From: an uncultured Rubrobacteraceae bacterium
Lineage (GTDB): Bacteria > Actinomycetota > Rubrobacteria > Rubrobacterales > Rubrobacteraceae
Length of the DNA: 12,595 nt
Assembly: GCA_902805985.1 (NCBI GenBank)
Contig: CADCUW010000453.1
Coordinates: 1 to 12,595 of the forward strand
Direction of reading: 5' to 3'
The notes under the pieces are model-generated. The model worked only from the letters and a program-made list of their open reading frames with translations. It was not told where the DNA came from and made no database searches. Below, piece after piece: positions 1-11,657 of this stretch (positions within the stretch are counted from its first letter, which is position 1; every line of letters begins with the position of its first letter). The position numbers and the translations under genes are program-made.

Positions 1-571
1 TGCGCCCCACGACGTACATCGACTCCTCTTCGACCTCGTAGCCGTCCCTAGTAGCGTTGTAGCGGAAACCGAAGTGTGGGCGCTTGGTCGCGATCACCTT
101 GCCCTCCCGCGCCTTCCTGAGCTTCCCCCGGCGGCTGCGCTCCGCGATCTTGAGTCGCTCGTAGCGCGCGATCTGGTCGAGGATGCCGGTAGTCAACTCG
201 CCTTCGGGGCTCCCGTCTGCGCGGTCGTTAAGCGCTCTCAGCTCAGTCCCGCACTCGGAGAACTCCTCCCGCAGGTAGAAGAGGTAGGCGGGCTCGCGGG
301 CGAAGCGGTCGCGGTCCTGCGCCAGCACGATGGAGACGCCGCCGGCCGCTACGAGGTCCCGCACCCGGTCCATGCCGGGCCTCTCCAGGGAAGCCCCGCT
401 CTGCCCCGGGTCCACTACCTCTTCCAAGACCTCGTAGCCTTCGGCGGCGGCGTAGGCCCTGAGGGCTTCTATCTGTTGGGCCAGGGAGTAGCCGCTGCGG
501 GCCTGCTCGTCGGTGGAGACGCGGGCGTAGAGGACGGCTGTCTTCGGGCCGTGGCCGCTGAAGTTGGGCAT
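1..571 (-). CDS. large serine recombinase, N-terminal part (runs off left edge)
   Basis: This is a site-specific DNA integrase/resolvase of the large serine recombinase family, the enzyme that integrates and excises phages and integrative elements. Reading the minus strand from ATG at 571 gives about 190 residues with no stop before the window edge. It starts MPNFSGHGPKTAVLYARVST, with the catalytic serine at about residue 19 in ARVSTDEQ. Further in come the arginine-rich active-site segment QDRDRFARE and the family-typical run GELTTGILDQIARYERLKIA, which leads into the long E helix and the start of the recombinase DNA-binding domain. The C-terminal zinc-ribbon and coiled-coil part lies outside the window. 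The start is set by the upstream XRE gene, whose stop codon TAG ends two bases before this ATG, so the two are almost certainly co-transcribed and translationally coupled. I am sure of the family; whether the whole gene is intact cannot be seen. Confidence 0.9.
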   Translation of the reverse strand, partial: MPNFSGHGPKTAVLYARVSTDEQARSGYSLAQQIEALRAYAAAEGYEVLEEVVDPGQSGASLERPGMDRVRDLVAAGGVSIVLAQDRDRFAREPAYLFYLREEFSECGTELRALNDRADGSPEGELTTGILDQIARYERLKIAERSRRGKLRKAREGKVIATKRPHFGFRYNATRDGYEVEEESMYVVGR

Positions 572-573
572 AG

Positions 574-789
574 CTACTGCCCGGGGGTGAGGGACGCGGG
601 ATCTACGGAGAGGGCTTCCGCTAACTTGCGGATGGTGCGCGGGTGGACCTCGATGGAGTCGCCGCCCTCTATCCGCCAGACCGTGTTGTGGTTGATGCCG
701 GCCTTGTCGGCCAACTCGCGCTGGGAGAAGAAATTCTCTTCCCTTGCAGTCCTGACTTTTACTCCGTCTATTTTCACGTCGGTGAGCAT
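574..789 (-). CDS. XRE-family helix-turn-helix regulator
   Basis: A 71-residue DNA-binding protein of the lambda Cro/CI (XRE) type. It carries a single HTH domain, visible as FSQRELADKAGINHNTVWRIE followed by RTIRKLAEALSVDPASL, the usual helix order of the fold. The ATG at 789 is chosen because AGGAGG lies six bases upstream. The frame stays open to an ATG at 837, but that would read through the AT-rich promoter and has no ribosome binding site. It lies two bases upstream of the serine recombinase and probably controls that gene and itself through the palindromic operator at 840-861. By analogy with other XRE-recombinase pairs it is inferred to keep the element quiescent; binding has not been shown. 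Confidence 0.85.
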   Translation of the reverse strand: MLTDVKIDGVKVRTAREENFFSQRELADKAGINHNTVWRIEGGDSIEVHPRTIRKLAEALSVDPASLTPGQ

Positions 790-826
790 CCTACGCCTCC
801 TGTCTTCGCGCGCCAATTTATAGATG

Positions 827-854
827 ATTTTAGACAATATATAGACAAAAACAA
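827..854 (-). promoter_or_regulatory. promoter of the XRE-recombinase unit
   Basis: On the minus strand a -35 like TTGTTT (849-854) and a -10 like TAAAAT (827-832) are separated by 16 bases, about 40 bases upstream of the XRE start. The surroundings are far more AT-rich than the rest of the window. Other -10 choices in the same AT-rich stretch (TATAAA about 10 bases downstream) are possible. Confidence 0.45.
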
Positions 855-861
855 GTCTATA
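840..861. promoter_or_regulatory. palindromic operator with helically phased repeats
   Basis: TATAGAC (840-846) and GTCTATA (855-861) form a perfect 7-base inverted repeat around an 8-base spacer. Two further TAGA-type half-sites lie at 821 and 831, so TAGAtg, TAGACA and TAGACA start at 821, 831 and 842, about one DNA turn apart. The palindrome sits exactly between the -35 and -10 of the plus-strand promoter and overlaps the -35 of the minus-strand promoter. It is therefore the obvious binding site for the neighbouring XRE protein. Confidence 0.6.
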
Positions 862-870
862 GTGTACAAT
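842..870 (+). promoter_or_regulatory. strong sigma70-like promoter, divergent from XRE gene
   Basis: TAGACA (842-847) and TACAAT (865-870) are separated by exactly 17 bases, each one mismatch from TTGACA and TATAAT. It points rightwards, into the hairpin/mini-ORF at 890-945. No intact plus-strand gene follows before 2050. Confidence 0.6.
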
Positions 871-889
871 TAGGTCGTTGCATAAAGAG

Positions 890-940
890 ATGGCCCCGGC
901 GAGTGCGCCAACACTCCCGAGGCCCGGCCCACTACCTTAA
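890..940 (+). CDS. possible 16-residue leader peptide (mini-ORF)
   Basis: An ATG at 890 opens a 16-codon frame, MAPASAPTLPRPGPLP, ending in TAA at 938-940. It lies about 15 bases after the expected transcription start of the promoter at 842-870 and coincides with the hairpin at 892-924. It has no clear ribosome binding site of its own, and the transcript may be near leaderless. It is proline- and alanine-rich and its stop runs straight into a Shine-Dalgarno sequence, as in a translated leader. It could equally be a meaningless frame inside a structured leader RNA. Confidence 0.25.
   Translation: MAPASAPTLPRPGPLP
892..924. promoter_or_regulatory. GC-rich hairpin (leader structure or terminator)
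   Basis: GGCC-CGG-GAGTG pairs with CACTC-CCG-GGCC around the loop CGCCAA (906-911). There are five, three and four base pairs, broken by one bulged C (900) and one C/A mismatch (896/920). On the plus strand it is the leader between a strong promoter and the orphan Shine-Dalgarno sequence. On the minus strand it lies just downstream of the MerR gene and is followed by ATCTCTTTATG, so it could act as that gene's terminator. Confidence 0.5.
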
Positions 941-945
941 GGAGG
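938..945 (+). promoter_or_regulatory. orphan ribosome binding site
   Basis: TAAGGAGG is an almost perfect Shine-Dalgarno sequence, but no plus-strand start codon with a usable open frame follows at the right distance. The expected start position (about 950) instead holds the 3' end of the opposing MerR gene and an IS-end-like sequence. This suggests that the original downstream gene was removed. Confidence 0.4.
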
Positions 946-946
946 A

Positions 947-1954
947 CTAGGGCCTGTCTGCAAAATCAACATGGATTCTATCGTCGCCGACGCTGCTCGG
1001 AGGCTCCGTTACTTGCCAACGTAGACCCTCGACGAGCCAGCCGTAGGCCTGCGCCATGGTGGCATCGTACTCCCATTGCTTCAGGGTAGCGATCAGCTCC
1101 CAATAGCGTTCCATGCGCGGATCGTACGTTCGCTCGTGATGGGAGAGCATCCGCTCAGCGAAGCGCGCATCGTCCCGTTTGCCTGCGGCACGCGCAGAGG
1201 CATCTACCCAGTCCGCGACAACGCCCTGCCCGTACTCTCCGGTCGGGGGACGTCCCTCTCGAATGGCCGACTTGGCTCTACCGATCGCGGTATTCACGGC
1301 CTCGTTCCAGCCGGTGGTGTCGAGGTTTTCCTCGGCCGTCTCCGAGACGGGTTTCGTTTGGTTCTTGAGGGCTGCGACGAAGCTATCGTCCGAGGCCAGC
1401 TTCGCGAGCTCCGTCCAAGCCGCGAGCTGCTCCTCGTCGAACTCCTCGGGCATGCCGGACACGATCGCTCGCCAGAATCCGGCTTTCGCCTCGGGATCCA
1501 CGGGGGCACCTTGGAGGCCTCTTTCCAGATGTTCGGCGAGGAAGGCCTCCCGTTCCTTCGCCTCGAGCACCCCGAGCGCCTGTGCCCGGTCGGGGTAGCG
1601 CTGCTCGTCTTCCGCGCCGCTTTCGAGAGCGGATTCGAGCAGCTTACGGCGCCTGCGCAAGGTCCGTATCTGGAGGTCCAAGGTCTCCATCTGTAACCTG
1701 AGCGCGTCCGACGCCTCGCTCTCCTCTTCGAGGATGGCACCTATCTCCGAGAGTCCGAAGCCGGCGGCCCTCAGCGTGCGGATCAGTTGGAGACGCGAGC
1801 GGTCCGTCTCGGAGTACATGCGGTAGCCGGCCTCGGTGATCCCCGAAGGGGGCAAAACACCCACGTCCGAGTAGTGTCGAATGGCCTTCACCGTCACCCC
1901 GCTCATGCGGGCCAGTCTACCGATGCTGTACGGCGCTTCTTTTCCCGAATCCAC
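947..1954 (-). CDS. MerR-family transcriptional regulator with long C-terminal effector domain
   Basis: A 335-residue regulator. Residues 1-75 form the MerR winged HTH: YSIGRLARMSGVTVKAIRHY is the standard recognition segment, followed by the wing and the LRAAGFGLSEIGAIL helix. Residues about 80-115 are a charged dimerisation coiled coil with QIRTLRRRRKLL. The remaining 220 residues are mostly helical and acidic, and would hold the ligand-sensing part; I do not recognise a named effector domain. The start is GTG at 1954, with AGGGAG five bases upstream. It is divergent from the DUF2268 gene at 2050 and lies next to a MerR-type promoter at 1965-1995, so it very probably controls that gene and perhaps itself. 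The last residues, HVDFADRP, are encoded by sequence that looks like a transposon end, so the natural C-terminus may be altered. Confidence 0.85.
   Translation of the reverse strand: MDSGKEAPYSIGRLARMSGVTVKAIRHYSDVGVLPPSGITEAGYRMYSETDRSRLQLIRTLRAAGFGLSEIGAILEEESEASDALRLQMETLDLQIRTLRRRRKLLESALESGAEDEQRYPDRAQALGVLEAKEREAFLAEHLERGLQGAPVDPEAKAGFWRAIVSGMPEEFDEEQLAAWTELAKLASDDSFVAALKNQTKPVSETAEENLDTTGWNEAVNTAIGRAKSAIREGRPPTGEYGQGVVADWVDASARAAGKRDDARFAERMLSHHERTYDPRMERYWELIATLKQWEYDATMAQAYGWLVEGLRWQVTEPPSSVGDDRIHVDFADRP
950..967 (+). repeat. possible IS5-type inverted-repeat end
   Basis: GGCCTGTCTGCAAAATC resembles the terminal inverted repeats of IS5-group elements, which often begin with G-rich xxCCTGTCTG and then an A run. 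It is preceded by CTAG, a target sequence used by some of that group. It is read here as part of the MerR 3' end. The opposite end was not found, so this is only a resemblance recalled from the family. Confidence 0.25.
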
Positions 1955-1964
1955 GGGCTCTCCC

Positions 1965-1995
1965 TTGACTCTCCACCGACAGGAGACCTTATGTT
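1965..1995 (+). promoter_or_regulatory. MerR-type promoter and operator
   Basis: TTGACT (1965-1970) and TATGTT (1990-1995) are separated by 19 bases, the overlong spacer typical of promoters activated by MerR proteins through DNA distortion. The spacer contains the inverted repeat TCTCC (1970-1974) and GGAGA (1982-1986), resembling operators of the BmrR/TipA type. Transcription would start near 2002, giving an untranslated leader of about 48 bases to the DUF2268 gene. Confidence 0.75.
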
Positions 1996-2049
1996 ATCCG
2001 ACGAACCGTCTAAAGCCGGACGGGTACGCGAACACGGGAGGTAAAAGAT

Positions 2050-2970
2050 ATGCCGGAGGTAAAGACCATTGACGTTTTGGAAGGGCAGCGCAGCGCGCTC
2101 CTCGCTCCAGCCACCGGCAGACGAGCCCTTTACAGCGAGCGGGTGATGGAGCCCTTGAGGCCGTTGTGGGAGCACATAATGAGCTTCATGCCCGCGGGGG
2201 CGGCCTCGGGATCGGGCGAGGGAGGCGATCCCGCCCTGGCGGCGGCGCGTCTCATCGGCCTCTACGATCCCGACTCCGATGCCGGGGAGGGCATCGACGC
2301 CCTGGCCGAGCTAGACAAGAGAGACTCCTTTGCTGGGTGCGTGCGGGCACAGGAGTCGGCCTTGGAGGCGCTCAGCCCGCAAGAGCATGGAGTGGACTTC
2401 GAGGGCGTGACCTTTGCCCTGGCGCTGGCCGATCCCCGGACGCCCGACCTGATGGAGCGCCATGCAGGGTACATGGGCGGGGCGTCCTTCTCCGACTGGA
2501 TACTGGCTTACGTGTGGCCCACGGACTACAACCTGCCGCGTCTGCCGGCCCTGGCCGTTCACGAGTTGCACCACAAAGTGCGCTTGGCCTTCGAGCCTTG
2601 GGACGAGACGACCACCGTCGGGCAGTACTTGGTTCTGGAAGGACTCGCCGAGGCGTTCGCCGCGGAGAGGTTCGGCGAGGAGTTGCTCGGACCGTGGACG
2701 AAGGCGCTTACCGAGGACGAGCTGGAAACGGCGCGGCCGGGCATGCGAGACGCCCTGGAGGTAAGCGGCTTCAACGAGATTCGCGGCTACATATTCGGGG
2801 ACTGGGCGGCTCCGCAATTCGGCTATGATCCCCGCGGGTTGCCGGACTTCGTCGGCTATTCGATGGGCTACCGGCTGGTGCGAGAGTACCTGCAGCGCAC
2901 GGCGCGCTCGGCGGTGGAGGCCTCCTACGTCCCCTGGGGGGAGATCGTCGAAGGGTCGCGCTACTTCTAG
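2050..2970 (+). CDS. DUF2268 putative zinc-dependent protease
   Basis: A 306-residue protein of the DUF2268 (YjaZ-like) family, predicted zinc metalloproteases of unknown substrate. The zinc-binding motif is clear: AVHELHHKVR at 169-178, with the HExxH histidines at 171 and 175 and the catalytic glutamate at 172. It is followed by LVLEGLAEAFAAERFG at about 194-209, whose glutamates (197, 201) can provide the third ligand. The C-terminal part, FVGYSMGYRLVREYL, is also typical of the family. There is no signal peptide, so it is probably cytoplasmic. GGGAGG ends nine bases before the ATG. The MerR-type promoter directly upstream and the divergent MerR gene make a two-gene sense-and-respond unit. 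Family assignment is firm, the actual substrate is unknown, and proteolysis is only predicted. Confidence 0.85.
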   Translation: MPEVKTIDVLEGQRSALLAPATGRRALYSERVMEPLRPLWEHIMSFMPAGAASGSGEGGDPALAAARLIGLYDPDSDAGEGIDALAELDKRDSFAGCVRAQESALEALSPQEHGVDFEGVTFALALADPRTPDLMERHAGYMGGASFSDWILAYVWPTDYNLPRLPALAVHELHHKVRLAFEPWDETTTVGQYLVLEGLAEAFAAERFGEELLGPWTKALTEDELETARPGMRDALEVSGFNEIRGYIFGDWAAPQFGYDPRGLPDFVGYSMGYRLVREYLQRTARSAVEASYVPWGEIVEGSRYF

Positions 2971-3004
2971 CCGCGCCAACGGCAACCCGAAGAGGCGCGC
3001 GGCC

Positions 3005-3310
3005 ATGAAGGACGAGCTTGCGGACGGGCAGTGGGCGCAGCTCTTGCCGCTGCTTCCTCCACAGAGGCCGATGCGGGGGCGACCGGCCAAAGATCATCGT
3101 GTGGTCGTAAACGCCATCCTGTGGCTGCTGCGCACCGGCGCACCGTGGCGGGACCTGCCGGCCGACGCGGGGGTGTGCTGGAAGACGGCCGCCAGCCGCT
3201 TCTACTGGTGGACCGCTTCCGGCGTGTGGCAGAAGGTGCCCCATGCGCTGCAGGAAGATGCCGACGGGCGCGGAAACCTCGACCGGTCCAGGCACTTCGT
3301 GGACGGCAGC
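3005..3310 (+). pseudogene. IS5-family transposase, N-terminal fragment
   Basis: From ATG at 3005 about 102 residues match the front of IS5-group transposases: ELADGQWAQLLPLLPPQRP, then GRPAKDHRVVVNAILWLLRT, GAPWRDLP, SRFYWWTASGVWQ and finally RSRHFVDGS. In the family HFVDGS is followed by VRAHQHAAG and the rest of the DDE nuclease, about another 150 or more residues. Here the frame continues only as unrelated sequence to a stop at 3383-3385. Only the helix-turn-helix region and the first catalytic aspartate (in FVDG) remain, so it cannot be active. There is a weak ribosome binding site (AGAGG), but no recognisable left inverted repeat between the end of the DUF2268 gene and this start. Confidence 0.8.
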
Positions 3311-3319
3311 TCAGAGTCC

Positions 3320-3795
3320 TCTACATCAAGCGCACTTTCCCGCGCCGCTTGGCCCGGCCCGGGCTCGGGTGGCCCGAACCGGTAGGTGATCTCGACCCTC
3401 GGGCGGCCGTCCTCGCCCCGGCTCACGGTGATCCCTTCCACCAGCAGCGTCGCTAGCTCGCGGCGGGCCCCGAACGCCCCCTCTGTGTCCTGCTCAACGT
3501 CCGCGAGGTTCTCCCTCAGCGTGAGTAGCCACGCCTCGGTGGTCCGGGCTACGAGCGCTCGCTCGTCCTTGGCCGCCAGGTCGACCTCGACGGCGGCGAC
3601 CAGCATCTTGAGGTTCTCAACCTGGTTCTTGAGGTCGGCCAGGTGGCCCTCGAGCTCCTCGTCGTCAACGAGCCCCTGAGCGTAGAGCTTGACGTAGCGA
3701 TCCTTCTCGCCCCGCTTGGACGCCAGTCGCCTCGTGAGGGACGCGTGACGCTCTTCTAGGCCCTCGCCCTCTGGGTCGCGCCGGCGGGTCGCACC
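3320..3795 (-). pseudogene. large serine recombinase, C-terminal remnant
   Basis: Minus-strand translation from about 3795 gives the coiled-coil C-terminus of a large serine recombinase: GLEERHASLTRRLASKRGEK, then DRYVKLYAQGLVDDEELEGH, LKNQVENLKMLV, TEAWLLTLRENLADVEQDTE, RRELATLLVEGITVSRGEDG and VEITYRFGPPEPG. Catalytic and zinc-ribbon parts are absent. Upstream, the frame enters the end of a different gene at about 3770-3800, and downstream it meets the IS5 fragment at about 3310-3330. It does not overlap in domain content with the recombinase at 1-571, so one cannot tell from sequence alone whether the two come from related elements. Non-functional as it stands. Confidence 0.75.
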
Positions 3796-4174
3796 AAACG
3801 CACGCGGAGACGAAAGAGCCCCAGTCGGGACGGAACTTATTGCCGATGTATCGTTCGGGGATGACGCTGCGTGCGATCGACTCCAGGTCTTTGCTCCAGG
3901 CCTCCGACGTGTCGAGCCACTCTTCTAGCTCCTTCTGCGGGTCGGGTAGCCCGGGCGGCGACAACGTCCAGTGTACGGGGTGTGGGGGCAATTGGGCACT
4001 GGCCTCGACCCCCCAACGGTCGCGGACGTCCCTCACCGCCTCCCAGAACGGGCCGTCCTGTGTGAACAGTTGGACCACGAGTTCGCGCTTAAGGGCCACT
4101 ATCTTAGTGTCCGCGCTCGACTGGATAAACCGAAGGTCGTCGGCCCGTTCTTCGTTGCCTGCTAGACTCCCCAT
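3665..4174 (-). CDS. hypothetical protein, 3' end replaced by recombinase remnant
   Basis: The frame starts MGSLAGNEERADDLRFIQSS and has 169 codons. I do not recognise a named family. The first about 130 residues look like a soluble, charged protein with a tryptophan-rich centre (FWEAVRDVRDRWGVEA, HPVHWTLSPPGLPDP, EEWLDTSEAW, VIPERYIGNKFRPDWGSFVS). From about 3782 to the stop at 3665 the frame simply reads the serine recombinase remnant out of frame, giving the arginine-rich tail RPRGRGPRRASR. The gene is therefore probably truncated by the same rearrangement that left the recombinase piece. It lies 61 bases downstream of the ABM gene on the same strand. The start is uncertain because no good ribosome binding site lies in front of the ATG. 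Confidence 0.5.
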   Translation of the reverse strand: MGSLAGNEERADDLRFIQSSADTKIVALKRELVVQLFTQDGPFWEAVRDVRDRWGVEASAQLPPHPVHWTLSPPGLPDPQKELEEWLDTSEAWSKDLESIARSVIPERYIGNKFRPDWGSFVSACVWCDPPARPRGRGPRRASRVPHEATGVQAGREGSLRQALRSGAR

Positions 4175-4235
4175 GAGCTGTGACGCGGACCCCGATCCTC
4201 AATGACCGTCAGGCCCGCGCCGCGCCTCCTTTTTG

Positions 4236-4553
4236 TCAGCTCTGCGGTAGCCCCGGCTCGCGCACTACGACGACTTCGTAGGTGCCCATCTGAGGGTGCC
4301 CTCGCAGCATCCCCGTGCCGCCCCCCCTGCCGTGCGCCGTCTTGAATTCATCGCTACGGACCCAGGAATCGAAGGCATTCTTGTCTTCCCAGCGCGTGAT
4401 CCCCATGACCTCGTCCGCTTCCTCGGAGCGCAGGACCTCCATCGAAACGAAGCCCGGAAAGTCCTGCACGAACCCCCGACCATTCGCGAACCGCTCGACG
4501 ACCTGGTCGGCCAGGCCTTCTTTCACTGGTAACCGGTTAATGACAGCGATCAT
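4236..4553 (-). CDS. antibiotic biosynthesis monooxygenase (ABM/IsdG-like) domain protein
   Basis: A 105-residue protein that is one complete ABM ferredoxin-like domain. Members include cofactor-free quinone-forming monooxygenases and IsdG-type heme-degrading enzymes. Family pattern: MIAVINRLPVKEG at the start, the FPGFVSMEVLRSEE strand region, and ITRWEDKNAFDSWVRSDEFK with the conserved W-E-x-x-x-x-F-x-x-W segment, then AHGRG. The closest character is the IsdG/HmoB-like stand-alone type, which would act as a cytoplasmic dimer, but the substrate cannot be read from sequence. AGAGG lies six bases before the ATG. It is preceded on the same strand by the SDR gene with a 131-base gap containing a hairpin, so it probably has its own promoter. 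Confidence 0.8.
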   Translation of the reverse strand: MIAVINRLPVKEGLADQVVERFANGRGFVQDFPGFVSMEVLRSEEADEVMGITRWEDKNAFDSWVRSDEFKTAHGRGGGTGMLRGHPQMGTYEVVVVREPGLPQS

Positions 4554-4581
4554 CCAGAACCTCTCGTCGTCGATAAGCCAT

Positions 4582-4599
4582 CGAGGCGGTCAAGCCTCG
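4582..4599. promoter_or_regulatory. short perfect hairpin between SDR and ABM genes
   Basis: CGAGGC (4582-4587) and GCCTCG (4594-4599) pair perfectly around the 6-base loop GGTCAA. It lies 28 bases upstream of the ABM start on the leader side and 85 bases downstream of the SDR stop. There is no T-run on the minus-strand side, so a leader structure or operator is as likely as a terminator for the SDR transcript. Confidence 0.35.
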
Positions 4600-4684
4600 T
4601 TCTTATGTTAGCAACAAGCGTCAGCCTCGGAGCGGGTGGAGAAGGTGCAGATGGTTGACATAGCTCTTCCCCACCGGCTCCAGC

Positions 4685-5686
4685 TCAACCCCCGCGTCGG
4701 CTCTGCTCCTTGCGAAGCAAGAGCCAGGTCAGGATGCCCGGGCCGAGCACGGAGGCCCCAATGGCGGCTGCGCGTCGCGCCTTGAGCGCGGCCCGACGTT
4801 TAGCTCCCTGGTTGAACCCGCCGTCCGCCGAAGCCCATTCCGCGGAAGACTCGTAGAGGTTTCCGGGGGAGGACTCCGCCGGCTCCTGGCGCAAGAGACC
4901 GCGCTCGACCGTCCGCGCCGCGGCGCGCTCGACGATCCGCGGCGCGAGGGCGTGCGCGAGTCTCAGGGTTCTCACGGAGTTGCCAACGACCACCTCAGGC
5001 CGCGGCCTCTCGGCGCACCGCACGACCACGCGGGCGATCTTCTCGGGGCTCGCGAGGAACCCATCGAACCCCATCGCCCGCCCCGAGTAGTTCGCGGCGA
5101 GCCGGTAGGCGGGGGTGTCCACGCCGCCAGGCATGATGGTGCACACATGGATGCCGGTGCCGCGCAGCTCGCCCCTCAGGGCCTGGGCGAGGCCGCGCTG
5201 GGCGAACTTGGTGGCCGTGTAGGCGCCCGCGTAGGGCGCCCCCACGAGCCCGAAGCCAGACGACATGTTGATGAGCACGCCGGAGCCCTGCTCCCTGAAG
5301 CGCGGAAGCGCGGCCTGCGCCCCGTAGACGTACCCCAGCAGGTTTGCCTCGACGACCCGCCGGTTCGCCTCGGGCGGGACCTCCTCGAGCCTGCCGACCG
5401 CCGCGAGTACCGCGTTGTTGACCCACACGTCGATGCGGCCGAACCGCTCGACGGCCCGACGCACCAGTTCCTCGACGCTCCCCCACTCCGCCACGTCCGT
5501 CGGCACGGCGAGGGCCTCCCCGCCACGGGCCTCGCACTCGGCGGCGGCCTCGAGCAGCGCCCCCTCCGAGCGTGCCGCGAGGACCACCGAGGCGCCACGC
5601 TCGGCGAAGCGCCTCGCCGTTGCCCGCCCGATGCCGCGGGACGCCCCGGTGATCACCACGACCATTTCCTCAGCACGAGGTCGCAT
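4685..5686 (-). CDS. short-chain dehydrogenase/reductase with C-terminal membrane anchor
   Basis: A 333-residue SDR oxidoreductase, using NAD(P)H on an unknown carbonyl or alcohol substrate. Counting from the ATG at 5686: TGASRGIG nucleotide-binding motif at 13-20, NNA at 90-92 (valine follows instead of the usual glycine), catalytic serine at 143 and YTATK (Tyr156, Lys160), followed by MPGGVDTP. An arginine after the first beta strand region (LAARS) favours NADPH. The classical domain ends near residue 250. An extra tail follows with NLYESSAEW, a basic stretch KRRAALKARRAAA and one hydrophobic segment AIGASVLGPGILTWLLL before RKEQSRRGG, giving a single C-terminal membrane helix with basic flanks. 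The start at 5686 has a G-run (5693-5699) six bases upstream; GTG at 5710 in the same frame is possible. Confidence 0.85.
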   Translation of the reverse strand: MRPRAEEMVVVITGASRGIGRATARRFAERGASVVLAARSEGALLEAAAECEARGGEALAVPTDVAEWGSVEELVRRAVERFGRIDVWVNNAVLAAVGRLEEVPPEANRRVVEANLLGYVYGAQAALPRFREQGSGVLINMSSGFGLVGAPYAGAYTATKFAQRGLAQALRGELRGTGIHVCTIMPGGVDTPAYRLAANYSGRAMGFDGFLASPEKIARVVVRCAERPRPEVVVGNSVRTLRLAHALAPRIVERAAARTVERGLLRQEPAESSPGNLYESSAEWASADGGFNQGAKRRAALKARRAAAIGASVLGPGILTWLLLRKEQSRRGG

Positions 5687-5924
5687 CCATGCACCCCCCG
5701 GCGAAGCCACGCTCGATCATATCCTTGCTCCCACGATCCGTTGAAGACTAAATCCTTACTGCGCGTTCTAGTAGCCGCGTGGACCCTACACCGTGAGCCC
5801 CCACACACCCGTACGCTGGGGAGACGAAGGCGCCCTTGCGACACGAGCGAGCGCCAACGAGACGGGCACAGCGTGTGGTGACACTGAAGGGTCCTCCTAA
5901 CCCGCCGTCAACGCCTTTAATTGC
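5687..5924. other. intergenic spacer, no gene seen
   Basis: About 240 bases between the MFS stop and the SDR start. Short frames exist but have neither family resemblance nor ribosome binding sites. It is somewhat less GC-rich than the flanking genes and should hold the SDR promoter, which I could not place with confidence. No tRNA and no repeat copy were recognised. Confidence 0.4.
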
Positions 5925-7103
5925 TCAGTAAACGCGTCCGCGGCCCGCGCCCAGCGCCAGGGCGACGGCTGCCAGCAGCATGGGCGCGACGACCCCGAAC
6001 GCGGTCCCTATGCCGACCCGGTCGGCCAGCGCCCCTAGCGCGAACGGTGCTATGAGGACCGCGCCGCCCCCGCCGACCGCGAGCCTGGCCGCGGCGGCGT
6101 CGGCGTTGCCTGGGGCCGCGGCCAGGGCCGCCGAGACGCCCAGTGGGTAGACGCTGCCGATGCCGAACCCGGTGAGAAAGAGGCCTAGGAGGGTAGGGGC
6201 GGTCCCCCCGGAGAGCCAGAGCAGGGGGAAGCCCGCCAGGGCGACGCAGAGGGTCGCGGCCAAGAGCGTCGCCGGGGGCAGGGCGCGCGCGAGGCGGCTG
6301 CCCAGGAGGCGCCCGGCCAGCATGGCGACGAAGAAGAGGGTCAAGGCCGTCGCCGCCCCCGGGCGGGTGAGGCCAACGGTGCCCGCGAGGAAGTCCGCCC
6401 CCCAGTACCCGACGCACCACTCCGAGCCCACACCCAAGGTAACGAGTGCCCAGAACGCCCAGTACCGGGGCGGCAACGCCCGCAGCCCGGTCGGCGCGCC
6501 GCCCTCCCCGGCGACATCGCGCTCCGGGGGACCCGCCGACCGGAAAAAGGAGAGGGCGGCTAAGAGGGCGAGCGCCCCAACTGGGGCCACAAGCGCCGGG
6601 CGCCAGCCGAAGCCCGACGCGGCGAAGGCACCGACGAGCAGCGGGGCCGAGATGGCGCAGGCGCTGGCCGCGACGTTGGACTCCGAGAGGGCAACCGCCG
6701 ACCACGGGCCGTGCTTGTCGGAGAGCAGCGCCTCTGAGGCGACGAGCAGCAGGGCGCCGCAGACGCCCATGGAGAGCGCGGCGGGGACGGTAGCCCATAC
6801 GCCGGGGCTCAGGACCAGCAGCAGGGCGCCTAGGGCCATGCCGGCCGCCCCTCCCCAGAGCGCCTCCCTCCTGCCCCAACGGACCAGGACTCGGTCCCCG
6901 AGGAGGCCGACGAGCACGCCGCCGAGCGCGAAGGCGCTGAAGTGGAGGCTTGCCGCGGCGTAGCCGAGGCCCTGCTCCTCACGGAGGAACGGCATGATCG
7001 GCCCGAGTACGGTCATCGTGAAGGCGAAGTAGCCCACAAGCCCGTAGGCCGTCCAGGTGATCGGGTCCCGGACGAAGGCGCCCCGCTCCCGCTTGACGGA
7101 CAT
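5925..7103 (-). CDS. major facilitator superfamily transporter
   Basis: A 392-residue integral membrane protein of usual MFS size. The first helix follows a short basic N-terminus (MSVKRERGAFVRDPITWTAY, then GLVGYFAFTMTVLGPIMPFL). The segment GDRVLVRWGRREALWGG between helices 2 and 3 is the MFS signature loop (G-D-R-x-x-x-R-x-G-R-R). Hydrophobic segments continue regularly, with a charged central loop (FFRSAGPPERDVAGEGGAPT) dividing two six-helix halves. The second half has the repeated motif GRLLGSRLA and ends in ALALGAGRGRVY. The substrate cannot be told; drug or metabolite export is plausible for this type. Start at 7103 is preferred for length; an in-frame ATG at 7151 is possible because no strong ribosome binding site decides. 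Confidence 0.85.
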   Translation of the reverse strand: MSVKRERGAFVRDPITWTAYGLVGYFAFTMTVLGPIMPFLREEQGLGYAAASLHFSAFALGGVLVGLLGDRVLVRWGRREALWGGAAGMALGALLLVLSPGVWATVPAALSMGVCGALLLVASEALLSDKHGPWSAVALSESNVAASACAISAPLLVGAFAASGFGWRPALVAPVGALALLAALSFFRSAGPPERDVAGEGGAPTGLRALPPRYWAFWALVTLGVGSEWCVGYWGADFLAGTVGLTRPGAATALTLFFVAMLAGRLLGSRLARALPPATLLAATLCVALAGFPLLWLSGGTAPTLLGLFLTGFGIGSVYPLGVSAALAAAPGNADAAAARLAVGGGGAVLIAPFALGALADRVGIGTAFGVVAPMLLAAVALALGAGRGRVY

Positions 7104-7250
7104 CGGTTCTTCGCGCACCTTCCCCCTCGTCGCCCGGACACGCGCGAGCATAGCAGCCCCGCCGGGGGGCATCCAGGTACGCAAATAGCACCCTCGCAAG
7201 ACCCTTGAGCCAGCCGGCCCGCACACGAGAAGGCCGCTCGGTAAAGGACC

Positions 7251-7300
7251 AGACCTCGCCAAGTTCCGACGATTGCCCTTCCATGCAATTTGGTGAATAC
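7251..7300 (+). repeat. dispersed intergenic repeat, copy A
   Basis: Contains CGCCAAGTTCCGAC (7257-7270), CCTTCC (7277-7282) and, after exactly 10 bases, GTGAATA (7293-7299). The blocks and their order match copies B and C. It lies between the start of the MFS gene and the end of the dihydrofolate-reductase-like gene. Confidence 0.6.
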
Positions 7301-7347
7301 GAAGAGGTGCGCGCCGCGACCGGTTGCCTACAGGTCCCGGGCGTTTT

Positions 7348-7377
7348 GGAGACGGAGCAGGCGGAAGAACCGTCTCC
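7348..7377. terminator. perfect 8-bp hairpin directly after DHFR-like stop
   Basis: CCGTCTCC (7370-7377) and GGAGACGG (7348-7355) pair perfectly around a 14-base loop. On the minus strand the first base of the stem follows the TAA stop (7378-7380) immediately. No T-run follows, so this is an actinobacterial-type terminator without a U tail, or a 3'-end-stabilising hairpin. Confidence 0.5.
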
Positions 7378-7938
7378 TTAAGTCTCGGTGTGGTAGCGGA
7401 GGTAAACCATGCCGCCTCCGAAACGGCGCTCGTCAAGCAGCTCGAGCTCCAGGCGGATGCCGTCAGGGAGGGACCGTTTGCCGCCCCCCACCACGACGGG
7501 TACGATGAACAGGTGGCACTCGTCGACCAGCCCGGCTCCGAAAGCTTGGGCGGCGAGATCGGCGCCGCCCACGGCAAGGTCGCGCCCCACCGACCCTTTC
7601 ATCCGCCGCACCGCCTCGGGGTCGAAGCCCCGCTCGATCCGCGTCTTGGAGGTTGACACTGCCTCCAGTGTTCTAGAGTACACGACCTTGTCGGCCGCTT
7701 GCCAGATCTCCGAGAAGTCGCGCATGAGCGGCGACTGGTCGGCGAGGGTGGGGTCGGTCTCCCAACCTACCATCGTCTCGTACATACGGCGCCCATAAAG
7801 GTAATACCCAACCGGTCGTTCGAGGTCGTTGATGAAGGCGTGCACCTCCTCGTCCGGCATGGCCCAGTCGAAGTTACCGTCCTCGTCGGCGACGTAGCCG
7901 TCGAGCGACGCGATCGCCGAGTAGACCAGCTTGGCCAT
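7378..7938 (-). CDS. dihydrofolate-reductase-like protein (RibD C-terminal domain family)
   Basis: A 186-residue stand-alone RibD-C/DHFR-fold protein. It starts MAKLVYSAIASLDGYVADED, the family's first strand with the S-L-D-G-x-x-A-D motif, followed by FDWAMPDEEVHAFIND. YYLYGRRMYETMVGWE is the conserved G-R-x-x-Y-E-x-M segment, and VGGADLAAQAFGAGLVDECH the nucleotide-binding G-G-A region, then VPVVVGGGKR and the terminal GMVYLRYHTE. Such proteins are common in actinobacteria as NADPH-dependent reductases of unknown substrate; only some have folate activity, so the DHFR label describes the fold, not the proven reaction. The ATG at 7938 is set by GGGAGG six bases upstream. It is divergent from the aac(3) gene. 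Confidence 0.85.
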   Translation of the reverse strand: MAKLVYSAIASLDGYVADEDGNFDWAMPDEEVHAFINDLERPVGYYLYGRRMYETMVGWETDPTLADQSPLMRDFSEIWQAADKVVYSRTLEAVSTSKTRIERGFDPEAVRRMKGSVGRDLAVGGADLAAQAFGAGLVDECHLFIVPVVVGGGKRSLPDGIRLELELLDERRFGGGMVYLRYHTET

Positions 7939-8049
7939 GGTGGACCTCCCTCCACGCGCACCCTTTGCGTTTCGCGACCAGCCCACGAAGGATAAGGCAC
8001 CGACCACGCAATCCAACGGGTCTTCCGCAGGCCTACCTAGCGTGGGCCA

Positions 8050-8116
8050 GGCGAACTTTGGAGAATCTCTTCAAGGCGAAGTTCCGAGCCCCCCTTCCAC
8101 GTACTCGAGTGAATAG
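8050..8116 (+). repeat. dispersed intergenic repeat, copy B
   Basis: Left block GGCGAACTTTGGAGAATC, middle block GGCGAAGTTCCGAG (8075-8088), CCTTCC (8093-8098) and GTGAATA (8109-8115) after exactly 10 bases. It aligns end to end with copy C at 9143-9208 by eye at roughly two thirds identity. GAACTT and AAGTTC within it form an inverted pair. Confidence 0.65.
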
Positions 8117-8126
8117 GGTCGAGAGT

Positions 8127-8156
8127 GGAGGCAGGCGCTATTATGCGCCTGCCTTC
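8127..8156 (+). promoter_or_regulatory. strong stem-loop in the aac(3) leader
   Basis: AGGCAGGCGC (8129-8138) and GCGCCTGCCT (8145-8154) are perfectly complementary around the loop TATTAT. With a G-U and a G-C pair the RNA stem can extend to 8127-8156. It lies 102 bases before the aac(3) start and 11 bases after repeat copy B. There is no T-run, so a leader regulatory structure or a palindromic protein-binding site is more likely than a simple terminator. Confidence 0.55.
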
Positions 8157-8258
8157 GGCCTCGAATACGTTCCCCGGGAGCTAACCCAATTACCGGTGGT
8201 GATAGTTCGTCGTCGCGGGCATTGGCCGACCTCCAGCGCTCCTGCTACCGTGTGGGGC

Positions 8259-9092
8259 ATGCTACCGACGCGAGCACGGCTCGCTCTCGATCTGGAGAAT
8301 CTCGGACTAAGACCGGGCGGGCTGGCGATGGTCCATTGCCGGATGAGCGCCCTCGGCCGCGTGGTCGGCGGGGCGGAGACCGTCGTGCGCGCCCTGCTCG
8401 ACGCCGTGGGACCAGACGGGACGCTCATGGCCTACACCGGCTGGCAGGACGCCCCGCCCGACGACCTCGGCGCCCTCGACGCGGAGGCGAGGCGCATCTA
8501 CCTCGAGGAGCACCCGGCCTACGACCCGCGCGTCGCGCTCTCCAGCCGCGACCACGGGCGGGTGGCCGAGGCCCTGAGGACCTGGCCGGGCTCCCGCCAC
8601 AGCGGTCACCCTGAGGCGGGCGTGGCGGCGGTGGGGCGTCTCGCCGGGGAGCTCACCGCGGGGCACCCCTACGACAACCCATACGGCGCGGGCACGCCCT
8701 ACGCGAGGCTGGTCGAACTCGGGGGCCAGGTGCTGATGTTGGGTGCGCCACTGGACACAGTCACCTTGATCCATCACGCGGAGGCCGTGGCGAGGGTTCC
8801 GGACAAGCGTCGGGTCAGCTACGGGATGCCCGTGGTCGTGGACGGGGAGCGCGTGTGGCGGACCTTCTCGGACATCGACACTGGGGAAGGCGCCCTGCCC
8901 TACGGGCGCGTCATAGGCGGGGAGGACTACATAGCGCACATAGCGCGCTCGGCACTTGCCGCGGGGGCCGGGAGGGACGGGCCGGTCGGAGACGCGACGG
9001 CCCACCTGTTCGGCGCGCGTGAGCTCCTCGAGCACGCGGTCGGCTGGATCGAGCGGAGCTTCCCGTCCGGGGGCGCGACGTACCCCGCGTAG
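8259..9092 (+). CDS. aminoglycoside N(3)-acetyltransferase, actinomycete AAC(3) type
   Basis: A 277-residue acetyl-CoA-dependent enzyme that acetylates the 3-amino group of 2-deoxystreptamine aminoglycosides; cytoplasmic. The pattern follows the AAC(3) family and especially the actinomycete AAC(3)-VII/VIII/IX/X group. MVHCRMSALGRVVGGAETVV is at about 24-43, GPDGTLMAYTGWQDAPP at 51-67 and EEHPAYDP at 83-90. RHSGHPEAGVAAVG, HPYDNPYGAGTPYARLVELG and VLMLGAPLDTVTLIHHAEAV (catalytic-site histidine region at 172-173) follow, then DIDTGEGALPYGRV. Length is normal for the family. ATG at 8259 is chosen because it aligns with family starts; only GGGG lies closely before it, so the start is less sure than the identity. 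Whether it confers resistance or acetylates a natural substrate is unknown. Confidence 0.92.
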   Translation: MLPTRARLALDLENLGLRPGGLAMVHCRMSALGRVVGGAETVVRALLDAVGPDGTLMAYTGWQDAPPDDLGALDAEARRIYLEEHPAYDPRVALSSRDHGRVAEALRTWPGSRHSGHPEAGVAAVGRLAGELTAGHPYDNPYGAGTPYARLVELGGQVLMLGAPLDTVTLIHHAEAVARVPDKRRVSYGMPVVVDGERVWRTFSDIDTGEGALPYGRVIGGEDYIAHIARSALAAGAGRDGPVGDATAHLFGARELLEHAVGWIERSFPSGGATYPA

Positions 9093-9142
9093 GCCGACCG
9101 AGCTACAGGGTCGAGGCCCGCGTGGCCCCCTCTCGGCCTGAG

Positions 9143-9208
9143 GCGCGAACTTCGGAGAACCCCCTACAGCCAAGTTCCGAGACCTCTTCCACGCGCACCG
9201 GCGAATGG
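9143..9208 (+). repeat. dispersed intergenic repeat, copy C
   Basis: Left block GCGAACTTCGGAGAAC, middle block GCCAAGTTCCGAGA (9169-9182), CTTCC (9186-9190) and GCGAATG (9201-9207), again 10 bases after CTTCC. Placed between the converging ends of the aac(3) and GNAT genes. It could incidentally serve as part of a bidirectional terminator, since GAACTT and AAGTTC are inverted copies. Confidence 0.65.
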
Positions 9209-9228
9209 AGGTTTGTCGTTCTTCGTGT

Positions 9229-9729
9229 CTACAGGTTCTTGAAGTAGCGTGCTATGGGCAGGAGCGTGAAACCGGCCTTCTCGTAGGCGCGCCGCGCGGG
9301 GGCATGTCCGGGGTCCCCCCCTGTCTCGACCATCGCCACCCCCATCCCCGCTTCCTTGAGCCTTTCGAGTGCGAACATGGTGAGGGCGGTGCCTATGCCC
9401 GCGCCCTGGCGGTCGGGTTCGACGCCCAGCATGGAGATCTCGCCCATGCCTTCCTCGGGGTGGTCGGTTTCCACGGCCACGAAGCCCGCCACGGCGCCCG
9501 CCCTCGCCACGGGGTCAGCCTCGGCGACCCACACGTTCCCCTTGTTCGCGGCGAGGACGCTCCGCACCGCCCGCCGCTGGTCCTCCCACCAGTCGGGGTG
9601 CTGGCGCCGGAAGATCTCGGCGCCCAAGACCCGCTCGAGGGAGGCGTAAGCCGGCTCCCACGCCCTGAGCGAGAGGCCGACTATCTCCTCGGCATCTCGG
9701 TCTTCGAATGGCCGGATCGTTGGCCGCAC
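9229..9729 (-). CDS. GNAT-family N-acetyltransferase
   Basis: A 166-residue single-domain GNAT protein transferring an acetyl group from acetyl-CoA to an unidentified amine. It begins VRPTIRPFEDRDAEEIVGLS, the normal first strand and helix of the fold. The acceptor-side region is EISMLGVEPDRQGAGIGTAL, in which V-x-P-x-x-Q-G-x-G-I-G-T is motif A, the acetyl-CoA pyrophosphate loop. The end, ARRAYEKAGFTLLPIARYFK, is motif B with the catalytic-type tyrosine. Start GTG at 9729 is preferred because AAAGGT lies six bases upstream and the protein then begins where the family does. An in-frame GTG at 9810 would put repeat copy E inside the gene. It converges on aac(3). No sign of antibiotic specificity can be read. 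Confidence 0.85.
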   Translation of the reverse strand: MRPTIRPFEDRDAEEIVGLSLRAWEPAYASLERVLGAEIFRRQHPDWWEDQRRAVRSVLAANKGNVWVAEADPVARAGAVAGFVAVETDHPEEGMGEISMLGVEPDRQGAGIGTALTMFALERLKEAGMGVAMVETGGDPGHAPARRAYEKAGFTLLPIARYFKNL

Positions 9730-9794
9730 AGGTTGACCTTTCGGTAGGTTACGGACGGATATTACCCGCGACGGCAGGGCGACGCTTCCGGGCA

Positions 9795-9836
9795 CAACCT
9801 CGCAGAGCACCCCTTCCGAGCACTCCGGTGGATAGG
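9795..9836 (+). repeat. dispersed intergenic repeat, copy E (degenerate)
   Basis: CCTTCC (9812-9817) followed after exactly 10 bases by GTGGATA (9828-9834), in the spacer between the divergent GNAT and DUF5946 genes. The ACTCCG just before GTGGATA resembles the same place in copy B. The AAGTTCCGAG block is not well kept, so membership is likely but less certain. Confidence 0.4.
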
Positions 9837-9905
9837 CGTGTGCTCTTGTCGAGGTACCGCTTGGGGTAACCTAAGCTGCAAGGACTTATCGAGGGGAGGG
9901 TGCGC

Positions 9906-10418
9906 ATGGACGAGCGAGCGGGCCTGAGGGCGTGTGCGGGATGCGGGGCGCTGGTACCGGACCCCGAGGGCCCCACCCACCGCTACATCGGGGCCTCGCC
10001 GGGGTGCTGGGCGGCCTACGGTGAGCTCTCGGAGAGGGAGGCCTCAGACTTCCGCTTCATGCGCTACCACCAGCTCTCCGTGGACGCCTACTGCGCCCAG
10101 CACCCGGGCGCGCCCTCCCCGCAGGCCGTCCGCTCGGTGGCCGTGCACCTGGTCGCGCTCCACCTCCAGCTGGAGCGCGGGACGCCCCTCGAGGGGCTCT
10201 ACGCCGCCCGACAGCGGGTGGCTTCGCTTGGCAAGGAGGGGAGGCTGGGCCTCCGGTGGCTGGAGCCTCCCGCCTCGATGGGGGAGGTCACCGTCCTGCG
10301 GGCGCTGGAGGCCCGCGACCCGGCCGAGTACGGGGAGGTCGCGCGCCTGTGGGCCGAGTCGGTGTGGTGGGCGTGGTCCGCCCACCACGCGACCGTGCGC
10401 CTGTGGGCGGCCTTCTAG
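9906..10418 (+). CDS. DUF5946 family protein
   Basis: A 170-residue protein of the DUF5946 family, whose function is unknown. Near the N-terminus CAGCGALVPDPEGPTHRYIG carries a C-x-x-C pair (Cys10, Cys13), which may bind a metal, and the G-P-T-H-R-Y-I-G-A-S-P-x-C-W motif typical of the family. YHQLSVDAYCAQHPG and SVAVHLVALHLQLERG follow and are the other conserved blocks. The C-terminal half is tryptophan-rich (VWWAWSAHHATVRLWAAF). GGGGAGGG ends five bases before the ATG at 9906; GTG at 9900 overlaps that ribosome binding site and is unlikely. Single gene, divergent from GNAT and converging on the hydrolase. Confidence 0.85.
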   Translation: MDERAGLRACAGCGALVPDPEGPTHRYIGASPGCWAAYGELSEREASDFRFMRYHQLSVDAYCAQHPGAPSPQAVRSVAVHLVALHLQLERGTPLEGLYAARQRVASLGKEGRLGLRWLEPPASMGEVTVLRALEARDPAEYGEVARLWAESVWWAWSAHHATVRLWAAF

Positions 10419-10510
10419 GGGCGGGTCATAGCCAAGGGGCGCCAGAGATTTGTAGTTCCGAGGTCGCTGGAGTTCCGGGTGGCATCCTGGGTCGGCGTCG
10501 TGGACTGCTC

Positions 10511-11443
10511 TCAGGCTGCGGACGCCGTGTGCCGCAATATCGCGGGCACGACGACGTCCCACAGATCCCGATGGGGCACCTCGTGACCCACCCGCTCCAG
10601 CGCGAGCAGCCGGGCGCCGGGTACCTCCTTCGCCAGCGCGACCGCGTTGCCGTAGGGGAACATGGGATCCTCGGTGCCGTGTATGACGAGCGCGGGGGCG
10701 CTCACCTCCCCGAGTCGCTCCCTCCAGCGCCTTCCCGTGTCGATGCCCGCGTGATTGGCAATGCCGGAGGCGAGGTTGGCCGTGCGATCGAAGGCGCGGG
10801 CCGCTATCTCGCGTACGGCCGCCTCGTCGAAGGGACGAGAGCCCGCGAACGGGCGCTCGCCTTCGACCATGTAGTCGATCACGGCGTCCCGATCCGACCA
10901 GTCCGGCTCGGGGGCCTCTTCTGCGAAGGAGGCTCGTAGTTCCTCGGACATCTCGGGTAGGTCCGGATCGCCTGGCCCGGCGGTGGGGCTCGTCGAGACC
11001 AGGATCAGCGACGCGACCCGATCGGGATGGTCCAGCGCAACGAGCTGGCCGATCCACCCGCCCACCGACATACCCATCAGATGGGCGCTCTCGAGGCCTA
11101 AGGCGTCGAGCAGACCGACGGCGTCCTCTGCCAGGTCGCGCAGCGAATAGGGCGCGGCCCCTCGCTCGTAGCTGATCGATCTGCCGGTGTCGCGGTGGTC
11201 GTAGCGGATGACGAACCGGGAGCCGGCCATCAGTCCCTCGCAGAACCCCTCCTCCCACCAGTCCATCGAGGATGCCCCTCCCATAATGAGCAGGATGGGG
11301 GGGTCGGCAATGTCGCCGAACGTCTGGGCGCAGAGGTCGACCCCGTTGGCCCGGAGGATCCTCTCGTTGGGTTCCATAGGCCGAACCACGGGACCCGGTG
11401 TGGGCGGCTGCTCTGGGACCTGGGCGTGGTCGCCGTTCGTCAT
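10511..11443 (-). CDS. alpha/beta-fold hydrolase
   Basis: A 310-residue hydrolase of the alpha/beta fold, acting on an unidentified ester or similar bond in the cytoplasm. Catalytic triad by position: nucleophile Ser126 in the elbow GMSVGG, acid Asp259 in HGTEDPMFP, and His287 in VGHEVP. The oxyanion region PPILLIMGGASSMDWWEEG and the segment YDHRDTGRSI are typical of the aclacinomycin-methylesterase-like and related branches, as is the helical cap between about 155 and 235. The first about 25 residues are proline-rich and not part of the fold. AGGAG lies nine bases before the ATG. The gene is alone on its transcript side, with 214 bases to the sigma factor upstream on the same strand. Confidence 0.88.
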   Translation of the reverse strand: MTNGDHAQVPEQPPTPGPVVRPMEPNERILRANGVDLCAQTFGDIADPPILLIMGGASSMDWWEEGFCEGLMAGSRFVIRYDHRDTGRSISYERGAAPYSLRDLAEDAVGLLDALGLESAHLMGMSVGGWIGQLVALDHPDRVASLILVSTSPTAGPGDPDLPEMSEELRASFAEEAPEPDWSDRDAVIDYMVEGERPFAGSRPFDEAAVREIAARAFDRTANLASGIANHAGIDTGRRWRERLGEVSAPALVIHGTEDPMFPYGNAVALAKEVPGARLLALERVGHEVPHRDLWDVVVPAILRHTASAA

Positions 11444-11600
11444 GACGGGCGCTCCTAAAAGGTTACGGCATCGTCTACTCGGAGCATACGCCGATGATCC
11501 TAAGATCCACCATCGATCTAGCCTTCGGAGCGGGACCGAGGTCTCGAGACGGGCTCTCGGGGGCCTATCCGACCTCGGCTAGGCAAGATCTCGGATGCTA

Positions 11601-11640
11601 ACTTTCTCGAATACTCCTTCCGGGCATCCCAGTGAATAAA
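11601..11640 (+). repeat. dispersed intergenic repeat, copy D (degenerate)
   Basis: CCTTCC (11616-11621) followed after exactly 10 bases by GTGAATA (11632-11638). AACTTTCTCGAATA before it is a weak match to the AAGTTCCGAG block of copies A to C. It lies in the spacer between the sigma factor stop and the hydrolase start. Confidence 0.45.
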
Positions 11641-11657
11641 CAGGGCGGCTACGGCGG

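Follow-up and report, generated by a model that had tools for sequence, protein, structure and literature searches.

The window analysed here is the whole of a 12,595-nucleotide contig (CADCUW010000453.1; C453) of an uncultured soil bacterium of the Rubrobacteraceae, whose metagenome-assembled genome (MAG) comprises 4.23 Mb in 707 contigs and is 88.6% complete. Its right-hand part carries five copies (A to E) of a dispersed repeat lying among genes. The repeat is composed of a left part of one or two direct units followed by a 22-bp core, and it probably serves for attachment in a cassette system resembling an integron, in which cassettes are recombined site-specifically at the core. In the following, G000 denotes the host genome, other G numbers denote related genomes, and L numbers denote loci. 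The repeat copies and the genes of the array are, in order:

7257..7310 (+), repeat copy A; model positions 40-93, unit 2 and core; core 7278-7299 exact; 19.2 bits
7378..7938 (-), RibD C-terminal (reductase-like) domain protein, cassette A-B; PF01872, E 9.8e-19; internal ATG start picked by eye
8044..8125 (+), repeat copy B; full length with units 1 and 2; core 8094-8115 exact; 56.2 bits
8250..9092 (+), aminoglycoside 3-N-acetyltransferase-like protein, cassette B-C; PF02522, E 1.6e-62
9139..9207 (+), repeat copy C; units 1 and 2; core 9186-9207 with 2 mismatches; 27.9 bits (match 9139-9206)
9229..9810 (-), GNAT acetyltransferase, cassette C-D; PF00583, E 1.9e-13; given as the longest frame, start codon not certain
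9796..9841 (+), repeat copy D; unit 2 and core 9813-9834 with 1 mismatch; 27.8 bits
9900..10418 (+), DUF5946 protein, interval D-E; PF19371, E 2.5e-33
10511..11443 (-), alpha/beta hydrolase, second gene of interval D-E; PF00561, E 4.4e-27
11581..11642 (+), repeat copy E; core 11617-11638 exact, left part degenerate; 19.8 bits
11658..12593 (-), sigma-70-like protein with a SnoaL domain, downstream of copy E; PF04542 and PF12680

The window was scanned with the pattern CTTCC-N10-GTGAATA, allowing up to 2 mismatches, and the bit scores were obtained with a profile built from 118 copies, none of which came from the window. With this profile, the best score in 200 shuffled windows was 11.8 bits, compared with 19-56 bits for copies A-E. 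The pattern matched six times in the real window and on average 0.37 times per shuffled window (maximum 3), and none of the 200 shuffles reached six. The sixth match (11128-11149) lies within the hydrolase gene and has no profile match; a suspected degenerate sixth copy near 10450 was rejected because the profile gives nothing there. Five spacer repeats in a shared orientation, with a fixed spacing that is unlikely to arise by chance, had been proposed in an earlier sequence-only reading of this stretch. The repeats are real and all lie on the plus strand; each core starts one base to the right of the position given at that time (7278, 8094, 9186, 9813 and 11617). The same reading had placed none of the copies inside a gene. 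Copy D overlaps the first bases of the longest GNAT frame (9229-9810), so that this statement depends for copy D on which start codon the GNAT gene uses.

The proposal of a family of intergenic repeats was borne out at the genome scale. When no more than one mismatch was allowed, the core pattern matched 151 times in the host genome and 7 times when reversed as a control, which answers the genome-wide search that the sequence-only reading had called for with further copies above background. On 61 contigs of the host, namely 60 contigs among the core matches listed plus the window, only 2 of the 206 repeats have their midpoint within a predicted gene. Among 246 related genomes, a stricter core pattern was present in all nine genomes of the same genus, the host included, with 2 to 156 matches each; outside Rubrobacteraceae, 19 of 207 genomes gave a single match each, no more than the control pattern. 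A profile search found copies in 23 of 39 Rubrobacteraceae genomes and none in 16; it scored up to 100 candidates per genome, and the highest copy counts should be read as "at least". The repeat family is thus nearly confined to Rubrobacteraceae and is densest in the host genus. Exact cores in genome contigs (n = 76) were labelled Rubrobacteraceae or Rubrobacter in 61 cases; the remainder comprised 12 from "Actinobacteria bacterium isolate 28", one each from an Actinomycetota MAG and an actinobacterium MAG (their positions match family genomes) and one from a Thermomicrobiales MAG. The last of these is a single copy of 51.7 bits outside Rubrobacteraceae (L201 7576, minus strand), which may reflect transfer or misbinning. 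The consensus had no match in plasmid and phage collections, and IMG/VR contained no exact core. The cultured or complete Rubrobacteraceae genomes searched are mostly free of copies, and the system may have been missed for that reason.

The consensus around 122 copies reads GCGAACTTCCnAGAACCCCCTCnGGCGAAGTTCGGAGAACnnCCCTTCCACGCACTC(C/G)GGTGAATAggg and resolves into two direct units of approximately 26 bp each, followed by the 22-bp core. The left part contains one or two units of the sequence GCGAA(C/G)TTCnnAGAACnnCC, and mean agreement among copies is 33% for unit 1 and 52% for unit 2. The core, CTTCCACGCACTC(C/G)GGTGAATA, has constant ends (CTTCY and GGTGAATA) and a more variable middle; GTGAATA is conserved at 95-99% per position in the 122 copies, which were themselves chosen by that pattern. 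A variant left part, consisting of TATGCGGGATCCTGCAT and then GGACTTCGGAGAAC with a normal core, replaces units 1 and 2 at L067 (~7200-7285), L020, L028, L030 and other loci (by eye, uncounted).

The copies are ordered head-to-tail. Copies of at least 25 bits were used to count orientations and copies of at least 20 bits to count genes per interval; the strand count required at least 30 bits and a gene within 700 bases on both sides, with genes called by a home-made, simple codon-usage script. Neighbouring copies point in the same direction in 242 of 263 pairs: 95 of 102 in the host, 65 of 72 in G004 and G005, and 82 of 89 across six further genomes (G002, G003, G008, G014, G026 and G031), whose contigs were hand-picked for several matches. 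In the full match lists of G004 and G005, the next copy lies within 3 kb for 56 of 131 matches, where 4-5% would be expected, and orientation agrees in 47 of 56 pairs below 3 kb, in 6 of 6 at 3-10 kb and in 5 of 13 beyond 10 kb. Because agreement is lost beyond 10 kb, direction belongs to local arrays and not to the replichore; a replication-strand bias was rejected, as orientation flips inside single contigs.

The direction of the repeat is independent of the strands of both adjoining genes: relative to the repeat, the upstream/downstream strands (n = 254) are -/- in 85 cases, +/- in 68, -/+ in 57 and +/+ in 44. Intervals between same-direction copies (n = 251) contain one predicted gene in 165 cases, two in 43, none in 26 and three to six in 17, and the 320 genes in these intervals run with the repeat in 145 cases and against it in 175. 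In G005, 14 same-direction copies occupy 14.4 kb (L124 11384 to L125 5827) between long repeat-free stretches, save for one inverted copy 0.5 kb before the start; the genes of this array encode APH, methyltransferase, glyoxalase, formate/nitrite transporter, MFS and RibD-C domains. Many other copies are solitary in long contigs.

Cassettes recur in different contexts. A homologue of the B-C acetyltransferase (81% identity) also lies between repeats at L056 3016-3895, and homologues of the DUF5946 protein (86-87% identity) come after repeats in L087 and L135. The strongest case of mobility is a cassette of 2,988 bp that reaches 99.93% identity between G000 and G004, its flanks being unrelated on both sides. 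In a survey of homology ends over 141 loci (1.23 Mb, at least 85% DNA identity), 28 of 86 ends lie no more than 60 bp from a repeat in both loci, compared with a mean of 0.26 and a maximum of 3 for repositioned repeats; both ends lie at repeats in only 2 of 36 usable alignments.

The point of exchange was located with repeat pairs that share only one flank, selected through windows outside the repeat that do not overlap the measured parts (downstream-shared, 40 pairs in 30 families; upstream-shared, 47 pairs in 30 families). When the downstream cassette is shared, identity remains at background in unit 1 (0.317 vs 0.326) and unit 2 (0.514 vs 0.518) and jumps directly after the core (GTGAATA) to 0.705 over a background of 0.338. 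When the upstream cassette is shared, identity is raised in both unit 1 (0.523 vs 0.326) and unit 2 (0.640 vs 0.518), is not raised in the core (0.624 vs 0.658) and is near background in the sequence beyond (0.397 vs 0.338). Since the units are linked to the upstream side and the post-core sequence to the downstream side, the units travel with the preceding cassette, and partners change inside the core. Linkage therefore switches within the 22-bp core, the exact base not being fixed; the middle of the core leans slightly downstream (excess linkage 0.20, sd 0.12; upstream side -0.10, sd 0.12).

Based on these features, a likely mechanism can be proposed. Each cassette would comprise one gene, or in some cases a small operon, bounded at one end by the left repeat part (one or two units), and the 22-bp core would be the joining point of neighbouring cassettes. 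A site-specific recombinase would then link each cassette to an array already in place, the exchange occurring within the core, and cassettes would accumulate head-to-tail with their sites in one direction and their genes in either. We infer that a dedicated recombinase acts at the core, that cassettes are excised as circles, and that units 1 and 2 may serve as its binding sites. Among the three possibilities raised by the sequence-only reading, a protein-binding repeat came closest, and it would be refined here to a recombinase site delimiting mobile gene cassettes. We also lean, if only slightly, toward the more specific view that cassettes are shuffled outside the integron lineage by a recombinase not yet recognised, whose site would be double-stranded and non-palindromic and made up of two direct units and the 22-bp core, and that integron-like gene stockpiling evolved independently in Rubrobacteraceae. 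The repeat system is new to the literature searched, judged by the titles listed outside subscription journals and preprints.

Several observations weigh against this cassette model. Twenty-one of the 263 neighbour pairs differ in orientation, the loci come from fragmented MAGs, and the weak linkage of the core has limited power because the core is conserved. Five of ten close upstream-shared pairs, including the 99.93% pair, end their homology before unit 2 or unit 1; among the others, one ends inside the core, two (non-independent) span most of it, and two are ambiguous. Such early ends could be explained only if the units had later taken part in another exchange or if the original neighbour had been lost. 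Binning also calls for caution, because window positions 2-6180 are 100% identical over 6,179 bp to a contig end in the MAG of another species (L304 10438-16616, G003:C48), which may represent a recent transfer or a shared or misbinned assembly; the flanks of the 99.93% cassette nevertheless differ. Furthermore, homologues of the window genes with 71-83% identity occur without repeats at unlinked places in repeat-poor relatives, which implies that single genes in Rubrobacteraceae also move without the repeat or have lost it. The acetyltransferase gene itself is found at unlinked places with no common flanks in G006, G030, G004 and G005 (L286, L290, L296 and L300), even where genomes are repeat-poor, and single-gene shuffling seems to be common in this family.

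The search for the enzyme likewise counts against the model, in that no recombinase is linked to the arrays and, across 39 genomes, the distributions of integron integrase and Y1/RAYT do not follow that of the repeats, nor apparently does that of large serine recombinases. Large serine recombinases (PF07508) are encoded in 27 of the 39 genomes and were not found in G001, G007 and G031, which have 29, 14 and 20 repeat matches, respectively, and are incomplete MAGs. One array has a tyrosine recombinase at its 5' end (L326 2950-4119), which was rejected as a candidate: it is of a common phage type, and 33 of 39 genomes have relatives at E <= 1e-40 whether or not they carry repeats. None of the genes recurring at array ends is recombinase-like. 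The enzyme may be encoded elsewhere, by analogy with integrase-less attC clusters, or may be a host protein such as Xer. The window itself begins at the contig end with a serine recombinase fragment (2-571, minus strand; Resolvase domain PF00239), of which a 621-aa relative with PF07508 is encoded at L053 1002-2867.

The alternative that survives best, unlikely as it is, regards the copies as elements similar to repetitive extragenic palindromic (REP) sequences or miniature inverted-repeat transposable elements (MITEs) that were inserted singly into spacers, the genes between them being ordinary neighbours. The intergenic position of the copies (2 of 206 midpoints in genes), the many solitary copies in long contigs and the presence of the same genes without repeats in relatives all fit this explanation. 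However, independent insertion would not give 242 of 263 same-direction neighbours with mixed gene strands, nor does it account for the change of cassette partners inside the core; for the same two reasons, the non-autonomous mobile repeat suggested by the sequence-only reading leaves these observations unexplained. Among the matches listed, for which few candidates were scored per genome, no relative has two neighbouring genes of the window array adjacent without repeats. The Y1/RAYT transposase (PF01797) is encoded in 3 of 39 genomes and was not found in G000, G002, G003 and G004, which are among the richest in repeats; the 36 genomes lacking it include four with about 100 or more repeat copies.

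A second alternative, which we consider improbable, is that the repeats are mere homology patches among which RecA-type recombination shuffles genes with no dedicated recombinase. Many similar sequences in one direction would indeed give circles and re-insertions, and in half of the upstream-shared pairs homology ends elsewhere than in the core. The low mean agreement among copies (only 33% and 52% in units 1 and 2, respectively) would make them a poor substrate for homologous recombination; moreover, the linkage switch is confined to about 22 bp.

Far less probable is a role in cis for an adjacent gene, either as an RNA or as a regulatory element such as a promoter, terminator, riboswitch or regulator site. 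The copies do lie in spacers, and terminator-like inverted repeats often come after them (by eye, uncounted); on the other side, the orientation is independent of both neighbouring strands. RNAalifold on 60 aligned copies gave -0.08 kcal/mol with 4 pairs and no compensatory changes, and folding of 40 of these copies with DNA parameters gave a mean z against shuffles of -0.42 (top strand) and -0.51 (bottom strand), so that neither the consensus fold nor the DNA folding revealed a conserved hairpin on either strand. Rfam had no match in the window at the gathering threshold. The structured RNA considered in the sequence-only reading is consequently not supported, as there is no covariation in the aligned copies and they fold no better than shuffles.

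The remaining alternative, a genuine but divergent integron represented by attC clusters with no nearby integrase, shares the array logic of one site and one gene per cassette with sites in one direction (242/263; 165/251) and a fixed exchange point (a switch inside the core in 30 + 30 families, with 5 of 10 close pairs breaking further left), but it is the least probable of all, because no hairpin is conserved on either strand, the consensus of 122 copies has GTGAATA and no GTTRRRY box, and the integron integrase cut-off (TIGR02249) is passed by no protein of the host MAG at its 88.6% completeness and in only 1 of 39 family genomes, G038 (L144, G038:C12), where a TAG lies inside the frame and the repeat has a single profile match. 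By the features tested, the repeat system does not belong to the integron family.

Two insertion-sequence families use the repeat as a target. Ten host copies are split with both halves kept, and in nine of them (L078, L083, L052, L076, L055, L040, L063, L060 and L059) the insert is a MITE of 131-145 bp at the same core position. The MITE has ends like GAGACTGTCTGGAAA...TTTCCAGACAGTCTC and always lies after CTTC(C/T), with TCC or TCT repeated. Genes for IS4/5-type transposases (L088; PF13340 and PF01609) are flanked by ends similar to those of the MITE. An IS110-family element (PF01548 and PF02371) is found inside unit 1 at L076 4497-5540 (minus strand) in G000 and at L133 ~7786-8832 (minus strand) in G005; its left flank is GCGAACTTCC-like and its right flank GAGAAC-like, and L081 has the same right end. 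Elsewhere in the window, an open reading frame at 3004-3385 (plus strand) resembles an IS5-type transposase remnant, as judged by eye with no search made. According to PMC11187229, IS1111/IS110 elements aim at attC and REP sites, and ISKpn4 and ISPst6 target attC. Given this known targeting, the insertions are what an abundant, dispensable site attracts and are not evidence for the mechanism.

Among known systems, REP/RAYT is comparable in its short, intergenic, many-copy repeats, and REPs too are targeted by IS1111/IS110-type elements (PMC11187229). In contrast to REPs, the Rubrobacteraceae repeat has no conserved palindrome, and RAYT/Y1 is absent from 36 of 39 family genomes. The attI1 site, as described in PMC3053210, consists of a simple recombination site and direct repeats bound by the integrase; units 1 and 2 and the core are arranged in a similar manner. 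However, attI occurs once per integron, beside intI, whereas the Rubrobacteraceae site is present in every cassette. Neighbouring pdif sites alternate in orientation. In the dif modules of Acinetobacter plasmids, short recombination sites that recur enclose adaptive genes, frequently a single one per module, and these pdif sites resemble chromosomal dif and act through the host Xer system, XerC/XerD (PMC6449649). The Rubrobacteraceae arrays share this layout, but their sites are longer than the 28-bp dif-like sites, point in one direction and lie in chromosomal arrays.

Integrons are the textbook platform for gene capture. The Rubrobacteraceae system resembles integrons and clusters of attC sites lacking integron-integrases (CALINs) in that its cassettes, mostly with a single gene, are arrayed head-to-tail and carry most of a site at one end, in the exchange near the far end of the site, and in having sites targeted by insertion sequences (PMC11187229). 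PMC3053210 and PMC9024848 describe attC as an imperfect inverted repeat with GTTRRRY at its boundaries that is recognised in folded, single-stranded form, whereas the Rubrobacteraceae site has direct units, no conserved fold and no GTTRRRY, and 175 of 320 genes oppose their sites. For Actinobacteria, IntegronFinder 2.0 reports no complete integron (PMC9024848). If the proposal is correct, integron software based on attC structure would not detect such a gene pool, and the repeat would offer an annotation route to a mobile gene pool of soil bacteria that includes homologues of aminoglycoside-modifying enzymes, as well as a clear hunt for a new site-specific recombinase. The Rubrobacteraceae arrays would then be a second system with the array logic of integrons and another type of site, and cassette stockpiling would have evolved more than once.

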